In this document: positions 2,674 to 10,784 of the stretch, in pieces
Numbering within the stretch: position 1 is the stretch's first letter
Layout of the letters: each line of letters opens with the position of its first letter
From: Thermosulfurimonas dismutans
GTDB lineage: Bacteria; Desulfobacterota; Thermodesulfobacteria; Thermodesulfobacteriales; Thermodesulfobacteriaceae
Direction of reading: 5' to 3'
Assembly (NCBI GenBank): GCA_011322625.1
Contig: DRMH01000113.1
Span: 1-52,902, forward strand
DNA length: 52,902 bases
Notes under the pieces: model-generated
What the model saw: only the letters and a program-made list of their open reading frames with translations
Told to the model about the DNA's origin: nothing
Databases searched by the model: none
Translations under genes and position numbers: made by a program

Positions 2674-3732
2674 AGGTTTTTCAGCCGGAAAATCCGGATA
2701 TCATCTGTGCCTGGCGGTGGACGGAGCGGGGGCTTTATCTTCTGGATCAGAGGCTTCTTCCGCAGAAGGAAAGATACATCCCCTGTCGCACCTGGCAGGA
2801 GGTGCGCCGGGCCATTCGGGAGATGGTGGTCCGCGGGGCTCCGGCCATCGGGATCACCGCGGCCATCGGGCTGGTGCTGGGGGCCGAAAGGCTTAAGGTT
2901 CACACCCGGCGGGCCTTCCTTTCCGGGTTAAAACGCATCGCGCAGGGACTTTCCCGGGCCCGGCCCACGGCGGTAAACCTCTTCTGGGCCCTTCGCCGCA
3001 TGGTGCACCGGGCCGAGACCGAAGCCGACGCCGGGCCGAGGGAACTTATTGAGATCCTCCGGGCCGAGGCCCTTTCCATCTGGGAGGAGGACCTTTCGGC
3101 CTGCAGGCGCATGGGGCGTCTCGGGGCGGAACTTTTGCCGGAGGAAGGCACGGTGCTTACCCACTGTAACGCCGGGGCGCTGGCCACCGGGGGCTACGGC
3201 ACGGCCCTGGGGGTGATCCGTGCGGCGGTTGAGGCCGGAAAGAGGCTCTCGGTCCTTGCCGACGAGACCCGGCCCTATCTTCAGGGGGCAAGGCTTACGG
3301 CCTGGGAACTCAAGAAGGCCGGGGTCCCGGTTTCGGTGATCCTTGATTCCGCGGCGGGTTTTCTCATGGCCCGGGGGAGGGTCCAGGCCGTGATCGTGGG
3401 GGCGGATCGCATCGCGGCAAACGGCGATACCGCAAACAAGATCGGGACCTACAGCCTTGCGGTGCTCGCCCGGGAGAATGGTGTTCCCTTTTACGTGGCC
3501 GCCCCGACCTCCACCTTTGACCTCGCCTGTCCTTCCGGGGAGCATATCCCTATCGAGGAAAGATCTTCCGAAGAGGTTCATTTTTGCGCCGGAAAGCGCA
3601 TTACCCCCCGGGGCGTTTCGGCGGTGAATCCGGCCTTTGATGTGACGCCGGCCTCGTTCATCACCGCCATCGTTACCGAAAAGGGGGTCATCCGTCCCCC
3701 TTATTCCGAAAATATTCCGGCGGTACTCTCCG

Positions 3733-3752
<20 letters not shown>
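2670..3752 (+). CDS. mtnA: Methylthioribose-1-phosphate isomerase
   Basis: MtnA converts 5-methylthioribose-1-phosphate to 5-methylthioribulose-1-phosphate in methionine salvage. It belongs to the eIF2B-alpha-like fold. Visible signatures are VRGAPAIG (54-61), THCNAGALATGGYG with catalytic Cys166, ETRPYLQGARLTAWEL (199-214) and GADRIAANGDTANKIGTY with catalytic Asp246. The 360-residue length is typical. The GTG start overlaps the TGA of the hepT remnant, and the 3' end overlaps rex by 20 nt. Polyamine synthesis (speE at 9954) releases methylthioadenosine, the source of this pathway, so the enzyme fits the organism's metabolism. No other mtn gene is in the window. Confidence 0.93.
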
Positions 3753-6494
<2,742 letters not shown>

Positions 6495-9375: not shown

Positions 9376-9452
9376 CGGGACGTAGCGCAGCCTGGCAGCG
9401 CACCCGCTTGGGGTGTGGGGGGTCGGCGGTTCAAATCCGCCCGTCCCGACCA
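9376..9452 (+). tRNA. tRNA-Pro (anticodon GGG)
   Basis: The 77-nt cloverleaf has acceptor stem CGGGACG/CGTCCCG, D stem GCGC/GCGC, anticodon stem CCCGC/GTGGG with loop TTGGGGT (anticodon GGG at 9410-9412), and T arm GGCGG-TTCAAAT-CCGCC. The discriminator A and the terminal CCA are encoded. C1-G72 is the bacterial proline-tRNA identity pair. A T-run follows (9453-9458) and probably ends transcription. Confidence 0.97.
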
Positions 9453-9512: not shown

Positions 9513-9525
9513 GGGGAGGTGTGTA

Positions 9526-9957
9526 ATGAGGACCACCCCGGTATGCCAGATCGACCGGCTGGACATGATTCCCGCCCAGGGGGGCAGGAAGGAGAGTCGT
9601 TTCCCGGTCACCACGCATTTGCTGGTGGAGATGTGGCAGGCTCCTTTCGGAGTCCTGGCCCGGGCCGAAGAGGTGGAGCAGGCCCTTCGCTTCTCGGGTA
9701 ACGGTTCCGGAGCCCGGGGCGAGGTCATCGTATATCAGTTTCAGCCCTACGGAGTCTCGGCCAAGGCCACCTTCGGCGACGCCCACATCTTTATCCATAC
9801 CTGGCCGGAGAACGGTTACGCGGCGGTGGATATCTTCGCCGCCGACGAGGAAGGGGCCTATTCCATTCTGGAACGCATGCAGCAGGCCTTTCGGCCTTCC
9901 TATATCCACGTGGTGGAAGTAAAACGGGGCAACCTCATCTCCGAGGGGGAGACTTGA
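9526..9957 (+). CDS. SpeD-like protein (S-adenosylmethionine decarboxylase homologue) lacking the cleavage serine and catalytic cysteine
   Basis: The 143 residues align with the small bacterial/archaeal SpeD fold: HLLVEMW (31-37), FQPYGVSAKA (72-81), HTWPENGYAAVDIF (91-104) and a VVEVKRG end. Classical SpeD cuts itself at a Glu-Ser bond in 'SESH' to form the pyruvoyl cofactor. Here the site reads GDAH with Ala86, and the catalytic Cys of 'FTCG' is Ala106 (FAAD). No other serine sits at the site, so autoprocessing is not expected. An extra 30 N-terminal residues precede the fold. The start follows GGGGGGAGG, and the stop overlaps speE as ATGA. It may be an inactive partner (compare the trypanosome prozyme), a regulator, or an enzyme of different chemistry. 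Confidence 0.8.
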   Translation: MRTTPVCQIDRLDMIPAQGGRKESRFPVTTHLLVEMWQAPFGVLARAEEVEQALRFSGNGSGARGEVIVYQFQPYGVSAKATFGDAHIFIHTWPENGYAAVDIFAADEEGAYSILERMQQAFRPSYIHVVEVKRGNLISEGET

Positions 9958-10784
9958 CTCGCTACTGGTGGCGGGAACGGCTGGGCCGGGATTTTGCCCA
10001 CGCCTTTCGGGTGGCACTGATCCACGAGGAACATACCCCGGCCGGCCAGCATCTCCAGGTGTTCCACAACCCCTTCTGGGGGCGCTTTGTGGTCCTGGAC
10101 GGGGTGGTCCAATTCACCGAGCGCGACGAGTTTATCTATCACGAAACCATCGTCCTCACCCCCCTGGCCCTCTTTGCGGAGCCTCCCCGGGAGGTGCTCA
10201 TCATCGGCGGCGGAGACGGAGGGGTCCTGCGGGAACTGCAGAAATTCTCCGACCCCCGACGCATCCTCCAGGTGGAACTGGATCTTTCGGTCTTCAGGGC
10301 CTGTCAGAAATATCTGCGAGAGATCTCCGGGGACTATCGGGACCCCCGGGTGGAACTGAGGGTGGAAGACGGCCTTAGCGCCACCCAGGGACTCCCCCCG
10401 GAATCCTTTGATCTGGTGATAGTGGATTGCACCGATCCGGTAGGGCCGGCCAAGAGCCTCTATACCCGGGAGTTCTATCAGGCGGTGCTTCGGGTCCTCC
10501 GGCCCGGAGGGGTCTTCATCCAGCAGGCCAGCCTGCCGGGGTTCTTCCCGGAGATCCTGCGCGAGGCCTACGGCCGGGCCAAGGAGATATTCCCGCGTCT
10601 TACGGTGCTGCGGGCCATGGTCCCCTGTTACGGGGACGAAATCGCCTTCCTCCTGGGAGGGAAAGACCCGGAGGCGGATTTTCTGCCCCGGCGGGAGTTC
10701 CAGGGGCGTTATTATAGCCCGGAGATGCACCGGGCCTCCCTGGTTATCCCTCCCTACTGGCAGGAGATCCTGCGCCGAAGCTAA
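9954..10784 (+). CDS. speE: Spermidine synthase-type aminopropyltransferase
   Basis: SpeE moves the aminopropyl group of decarboxylated SAM onto a diamine such as putrescine, or onto agmatine in some thermophiles. The 276 residues show the small N-terminal beta domain (TERDEFIYHE), the Rossmann motif GGGDGG (about 83-88), the acidic VELD that holds the substrate, and DCTDPVGPAKSLYTREFYQ with the catalytic aspartate. These residues are intact, in contrast to the upstream SpeD-like protein. It overlaps that gene by 4 nt (ATGA), so both are made from one message. The diamine preference cannot be read reliably. Only 12 nt separate it from the convergent sbcC. Confidence 0.93.
   Translation: MTRYWWRERLGRDFAHAFRVALIHEEHTPAGQHLQVFHNPFWGRFVVLDGVVQFTERDEFIYHETIVLTPLALFAEPPREVLIIGGGDGGVLRELQKFSDPRRILQVELDLSVFRACQKYLREISGDYRDPRVELRVEDGLSATQGLPPESFDLVIVDCTDPVGPAKSLYTREFYQAVLRVLRPGGVFIQQASLPGFFPEILREAYGRAKEIFPRLTVLRAMVPCYGDEIAFLLGGKDPEADFLPRREFQGRYYSPEMHRASLVIPPYWQEILRRS

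Follow-up and report, generated by a model that had tools for sequence, protein, structure and literature searches.

We found that a SpeD-like protein encoded immediately upstream of the spermidine synthase gene speE in the thermophilic sulfur bacterium Thermosulfurimonas dismutans has lost both the pyruvoyl-forming serine and the catalytic cysteine of SAM decarboxylase (AdoMetDC) and keeps the substrate side of the active site under strict conservation. Our preferred reading, to which we give a probability of about one in two, is that this protein and its relatives (type P) contribute the half without a pyruvoyl group to a SAM decarboxylase encoded by two genes, the other half being a second SpeD (type O) that lies beside agmatinase and would on its own probably be an arginine decarboxylase. 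Residue loss and retention, conservation, co-occurrence, gene order, and the origin among classical SpeDs were computed here. The formation of an O:P heterodimer, its decarboxylation of SAM, and the activity of O we infer from these sequence comparisons.

The window, a stretch of 52,902 nucleotides, carries the P gene at positions 9526–9957 (+). The gene encodes a protein of 143 aa with a core at about residues 26–137 and an N-terminal extension (residues 1–25) predicted to be disordered; a ribosome-binding-site-like GGAGG, read from the sequence, is located 6 nt upstream of the ATG (9515–9519, +). The upstream neighbor, a tRNA-Pro (GGG) gene (9376–9452, +), is outside the system. Downstream, speE (9954–10784, +) begins with a TTG that shares a 4-nt overlap (TTGA) with the stop of P, and its aminopropyltransferase motifs GGGDGG, DCTDP, and DEFIYHE are all retained. 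The P protein matches PF02675 (Pfam AdoMet_dc) over its full length with 84.4 bits and scores 72.3 bits against TIGR03330, the AdoMetDC equivalog, slightly below the cut-off of 75.65. We confirmed the fold motifs listed in the initial annotation (HLLVEMW, FQPYGVS, and HTWPENGYAAVDIF), and alignment with the Thermotoga maritima SpeD (1tmi/1tlu) places S63 and C83 at the two substitutions that it had singled out: Ala86 (GCC, 9781–9783, +) at the pyruvoyl-forming serine and Ala106 (GCC, 9841–9843, +) at the catalytic cysteine. In the same alignment, F72, S78, H91, W93, and E95 of the window's protein correspond to T. maritima F49, S55, H68, W70, and E72, and T. maritima numbers are used below. 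By position, the Phe72 codon (9739–9741, +) corresponds to human F223 and the Ser78 codon (9757–9759, +) to human S229, and the stretch His91-Thr92-Trp93-Pro94-Glu95 (9796–9810, +) contains the equivalents of human H243 and E247.

In the AlphaFold model of the protein, the core has pLDDT values mostly between 80 and 91 and the N-terminal 25 residues are disordered. Foldseek searches with the model returned the SpeD structures 2iii, 1vr7, 1tlu, and 1tmi, the last being an S63A mutant, at E < 1e-8, followed by human spermine synthase (3c6k; E 2.6e-5, TMq 0.53) and the potato and trypanosome AdoMetDCs.

A contig search with the window's protein recovered relatives in Thermodesulfobacteriaceae, Thermodesulfatator, and Deltaproteobacteria, and searches of related genomes with PF02675 and profiles gave a family of 54 distinct sequences from 53 genomes and at least 11 families. 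The family is cleanly set apart from all other SpeDs, with scores of at least 128 bits for its members vs. at most 97.5 bits for the others in a profile built from alignment A1. C83 is absent from all 54 sequences and S63 from 47 of them; because a serine survives at its position in seven sequences and the cysteine in none, the loss of the cysteine is the defining trait of P. The two substitutions pointed out in the initial annotation are shared unevenly among relatives: the cysteine loss marks the whole clade, while the serine loss does not. Neither chance nor an error accounts for them: a second genome record has a copy that is 99% identical, and the cysteine is missing from all 54 distinct relatives. 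As these homologues are conserved, a sequencing error or a pseudogene is ruled out. Among the P proteins with a serine, one (L042, 2716–3138, –) retains the full ESH motif and might self-cleave yet be unable to turn over; the other six have the serine at the processing site without the preceding glutamate.

Measured against the positions conserved in 36 classical SpeDs, all 54 P proteins keep H7, E11, F49, P51, G53, H68, T69, W70, P71, E72, Y75, D79, and G113, and S55 is likewise retained in every one. Further losses affect, in most P proteins, T82, G84, C15, T40, and G56. What has been lost is the pyruvoyl-and-cysteine part of the site; the substrate-side part is strictly conserved. In terms of the class 1b AdoMetDCs (SpeD), the window's protein has the fold and the family membership and, as do all 54, S55, H68, and the SAM-site residues F49, W70, and E72; it falls short of the TIGR03330 cut-off and lacks S63 and C83. 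We rejected P alone as a SAM decarboxylase working without a pyruvoyl group: it offers no candidate catalytic group, and the S63 and C83 positions vary freely. In a tree built on 132 columns, in which many forks are unresolved, the P sequences group as one clade (SH-aLRT 99). This clade is separate from O and sits among the classical SpeDs, most of which adjoin speE, and P descends from speE-linked members of that classical group. The link to speE is largely kept, speE lying directly downstream of P in 49 of the 53 genomes and usually overlapping it. As the initial annotation had suggested, the protein is a bacterial SpeD pseudoenzyme co-translated with an intact SpeE, and it is conserved. The P gene is not beside speE in four genomes (G138, G191, G260, and G355); SpeE is encoded elsewhere in G138, G260, and G355 and is absent from G191. 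The lone P gene of G191 (L148, 2963–3388, +), in a genome that is 97% complete and has no detectable SpeE, is an exception to every explanation linking P with SpeE.

A second SpeD somewhere in the genome had been considered at the outset, and exactly one was found in the genome of the window (1.91 Mb, 97% complete). It is of type O, is encoded on contig C76 directly upstream of agmatinase, has both the processing serine and the cysteine in intact ESH and FSC motifs, and scores 86.8 bits against TIGR03330, above the cut-off. Across 82 O sequences, S63, H64, A61, and C83 are kept without exception. The changes lie elsewhere: E11 is replaced by Asp and W70 by Phe or Tyr in all 82, and E72 is present in only 60. 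In the F49–S55 stretch, O has a loop longer by four residues, aligned such that F49 becomes Tyr and P51 becomes Asp; these two changes hinge on the alignment of the insertion, whereas the assignments of E11, W70, S63, and C83 do not. S55 and H68 are retained. O lacks P51 but keeps P71; all true AdoMetDCs are described as sharing one proline, whose position the text does not specify (PMC10407285). The O core is the same across genomes that also have P, that also have a classical SpeD, or that have neither, and there is thus no sign of O alone having become a SAM decarboxylase in the P genomes. Two positions of O, Y13 and L91 (the latter in 35/37), fixed in P genomes and different in the closely related f20 genomes, which lack P and a standalone SpeE, were considered as adaptations to the partner and are not relied on, the tree being undecided on whether f20 falls inside or outside the P-bearing group (AU p 0.58).

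The agmatinase gene, speB, follows O at all 37 of the P-genome O loci examined and at 21 of the 45 other O loci. A recognized arginine or ornithine decarboxylase was not found in the window's genome, where PF01862 had no match, PF01276 matched a sub-threshold fragment only, and the sole PF02784 gene was closest to lysA. The last (L102, 1309–2649, +), the genome's single decarboxylase of the PF02784 type, does not reach the lysA cut-off and is located behind a gene that by reading is ATP-grasp-like. In its genome pattern, O resembles the published SpeDA proteins, SpeD-derived pyruvoyl arginine decarboxylases (PMC10407285): there are two SpeDs, one SpeE, and an agmatinase linked to O and, in the window's genome, no recognized arginine or ornithine decarboxylase. 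Unlike SpeDA, O is not among the proteins identifiable as assayed in that study. The simplest reading of the gene order and the absence patterns is that O alone would not be a SAM decarboxylase and is more likely a SpeDA-type arginine decarboxylase.

All 33 P genomes in a sample of 395 genomes of the phylum have O. Overall, O was found in 50 of the 53 P genomes, the three without it (G001, G029, and G040) having a completeness of 90, 70, and 76%. P arose once, and the genomes counted here are therefore not independent observations. In the closed P genomes (G005, G009, G010, G012, G014, G030, G032, and G138), the SpeD genes number exactly two, one O and one P, and as a rule P genomes have O, P, and SpeE and lack a classical SpeD. 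A standalone SpeE, counted as a frame of up to ~420 aa, was present in 34 of the 35 P genomes tested.

Of the 395 genomes, 45 have O without P. Where O is accompanied by another SpeD (23 genomes), a standalone SpeE is present in 22; where O is the sole SpeD (22 genomes), it is present in one (G306), a difference with a Fisher p of 1.3e-10, in which kinship is not corrected for. At least eight changes of state occur on the O tree. Of the 4 well-supported independent pairs, an average of 3.6 agree with the association and the rest are tied, none pointing the other way, which is not significant alone. Five genomes (f20) have the O proteins closest to those of the P genomes and keep them beside speB but have neither P nor a standalone SpeE. 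In G306, where O is the genome's only SpeD, the protein in question is a divergent SpeE-like one (L307, 3112–4125, –) with GGATGA instead of GGGDGG, and a neighboring gene (442–1704, –) looks, by reading only, like a carboxyspermidine dehydrogenase. Thermodesulfobacterium thermophilum, a member of the same order as T. dismutans, was chosen from species accumulating spermine or thermospermine, and two of its aminopropyltransferases are active in Escherichia coli (PMC11107197); decarboxylated SAM is therefore made in this order. The window's genome encodes a second aminopropyltransferase, unlinked to P (C76:7965–8507; L101, 1258–2202), probably the counterpart of one of the two.

Neither P nor O has the whole classical set of S63, C83, F49, W70, and E72; only the two together provide it. 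Such a division has a known counterpart. In eukaryotic AdoMetDC, both halves of the sandwich contribute active-site residues: one half provides the pyruvoyl serine and the proton-donating cysteine, and strand 12 of the C-terminal half carries the histidine and the glutamate that binds the ribose. Prokaryotic SpeD is the union of both residue sets and builds the sandwich from two identical molecules (PMC1282579; PMC5201418). In our own alignment, the C-terminal half of the human enzyme reads FNPCGYS...WTIHITPE and has Thr and Asn at the places of S63 and C83. The profile of the eukaryotic class 2 enzyme, PF01536, matched 2 of the 10 P members tested, only at profile positions 215–304 of 343, which is the C-terminal half; none of eight SpeDs of the O and classical types matched it with an E of 1 or less. 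With E values of 0.003 and 0.011, the two P matches are weak, and the support is minor.

We propose that P lends its half-site of the SpeD dimer, with the SAM-binding and processing-helper residues F49, S55, H68, W70, and E72, to an O:P pair for which O would supply the pyruvoyl serine and the cysteine. The dimer would have one complete site, made of the Ser and Cys of O and the Phe, Ser, His, Trp, and Glu of P, and one dead site, as is the case in a single eukaryotic chain. Translated together with SpeE, P would bind O and complete the SAM decarboxylase, and the decarboxylated SAM would feed SpeE. The O:O dimers would in turn produce agmatine, which agmatinase converts to putrescine, the other substrate of SpeE. 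O would be shared between the two kinds of dimers, so that the level of P could determine what portion of O goes to each reaction. The further step, that one pyruvoyl subunit makes up two enzymes, O:O acting on arginine for agmatinase and O:P on SAM for SpeE, with the substrate chosen by the lending partner, is more tentative than the two-gene decarboxylase itself, and we consider it possible rather than probable. Because O has retained S55 and H68, its homodimers could be competent, and the division of labor would not be reciprocal. Several observations speak against the O:P model: position 72 is Glu in most O proteins, the gene order ties P to SpeE and not to O, G191 has P without SpeE, and G306 has a divergent SpeE-like gene with O only.

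Other explanations assign the retained residues of P a different role. We consider it rather unlikely that P binds SpeE and serves it in a regulatory or structural role, sensing SAM, decarboxylated SAM, or methylthioadenosine or passing it on, while O alone makes decarboxylated SAM. The position directly upstream of speE, usually with an overlap, fits such a partner, as does the invariance of the nucleoside-binding residues, and human spermine synthase, which is among the best non-SpeD structural matches of the P model, has an N-terminal domain that mediates dimerization and carries disease mutations (PMC11203672). S55 and H68, however, are processing and catalytic residues and superfluous for a SpeE partner, and the presence of SpeE in only 1 of the 22 O-only genomes is against O alone making decarboxylated SAM. 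The two T. thermophilum aminopropyltransferases, whichever of them adjoins P, work in E. coli when each is expressed as a single gene (PMC11107197). The coupling of P and SpeE, noted from the start, holds as a matter of gene order in 49 of 53 genomes, but a pure partner role is weakened by the four genomes with P unlinked, three of them with speE elsewhere. Similarly, P is a dead SpeD homologue, as a regulator or binding protein might be, but what it retains points to a decarboxylase subunit and not to an unspecified regulator.

That P acts as a prozyme-like allosteric regulator, switching or stabilizing an O that is a complete decarboxylase of SAM and possibly also of arginine and giving no residues to its active site, appears unlikely to us. 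O has all the residues known to be essential for self-processing (S63, S55, H68, and C83), a SpeD beside agmatinase could also serve the aminopropylagmatine route, and in trypanosomes a dead AdoMetDC paralogue does activate its partner (PMC5201418). An allosteric scaffold would nevertheless not need the SAM-site residues that are invariant in all 54 P proteins, the O core is no different between genomes with and without P, and 21 of the 22 O-only genomes lack SpeE. The near-absence of SpeE from genomes with O as the sole SpeD argues against O alone making decarboxylated SAM, which a SpeE partner and a prozyme-like regulator both require. For the same reason, the suggestion of the initial annotation that decarboxylated SAM comes from another SpeD was too simple: the other SpeD has substrate-side changes and adjoins agmatinase. 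Far less probable still is that P is a decaying leftover of an old speE-linked SpeD, kept mainly for the translational coupling of speE after O took over SAM decarboxylation. Its descent from classical speE-linked SpeDs and the overlap of its stop with the speE start agree with decay, but the frame is open and conserved in at least 11 families and more than a dozen invariant residues cluster on the active-site face; in the four genomes where P is free-standing, translational coupling cannot explain it. Conservation largely refutes this explanation.

The O:P model places P beside several known systems. As the C-terminal half of the eukaryotic class 2 AdoMetDC (PF01536), P is without the serine and the cysteine and keeps the Phe, Ser, His, and Glu of the shared site; the eukaryotic halves are fused, however, and the N-terminal half has lost the complementary residues, whereas here there are two genes and O still has S55 and H68. 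The trypanosomatid prozyme (PMC5201418) is, as P is proposed to be, a catalytically dead paralogue acting with an active AdoMetDC, and P does have a second AdoMetDC homologue in the same genome, with S63 and C83 intact and a predicted activity. The comparison, made already in the initial annotation, was a useful lead that does not carry over in full. The prozyme is a eukaryotic class 2 protein that acts through a dimerization domain lacking in bacterial SpeD, and it has lost active-site elements (residues 202–247 of the partner are absent; PMC5201418), whereas P has class 1b length, forms one clade among bacterial SpeDs, and keeps the SAM half-site. The N-terminal domain of human spermine synthase (3c6k) is likewise a non-catalytic SpeD-like fold attached to an aminopropyltransferase; there the SpeD-like domain is fused, whereas P has a gene of its own, which overlaps speE in the window and lies apart from it in 4 of 53 genomes.

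In the literature, P comes closest to the SpeD-SpeDC fusion of Victivallis vadensis and Desulfobacter latus, whose C-terminal domain is degraded (Li et al. 2023, PMC10407285). There, a C-terminal bacterial SpeD domain without critical active-site residues works beside an active SpeD domain and upstream of speE, as is reminiscent of P. Unlike P, the fusion domain is derived from an ornithine decarboxylase; P is separate, falls among the classical SpeDs, and does not show the SpeDC marks (Gln/Thr/Phe/Tyr) as placed here. In the columns that we matched to these marks (T. maritima 58, 62, 69, and 77; our own placement), Q/T/F/Y occur in a subset of other SpeDs and in neither P nor O, and on this placement an identity as SpeDC-type ornithine decarboxylases is not favored for either. 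Other arrangements also occur. One locus (L083, G072:C165, ~2851–4534) has the order speD, speE, and a second SpeD with the Gln/Thr/Phe/Tyr marks matched here to SpeDC (ornithine decarboxylase), and genes similar to the last occur in L082, L086, L088, and L173. Within the same phylum, a 430-aa frame (L016, 1465–2754, +) fuses an intact SpeD with a SpeE domain. A genome with normal P and O also encodes a divergent extra SpeD-like protein with ESH kept and a long frame (L080, G003:C4), with a divergent SpeE-like gene ~0.9 kb away on the same strand.

Our literature search, with most subscription journals outside its reach, found no account of a bacterial SpeD pseudoenzyme that is a protein by itself, nor of a bacterial SpeD assembled in this way from unlike subunits. 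For annotation, the results mean that in P genomes neither SpeD should be named a SAM decarboxylase from sequence alone and that the SpeD adjoining speE is the one unable to perform the reaction by itself. If O:P is a SAM decarboxylase, it would show in unfused form the step by which the eukaryotic enzyme is proposed to have arisen, with one SpeD half keeping the cofactor and the other the substrate side only. The O:O and O:P system would then be a two-gene bacterial counterpart of the fused eukaryotic AdoMetDC, in which the substrate of an enzyme is set by exchanging a catalytically dead subunit.
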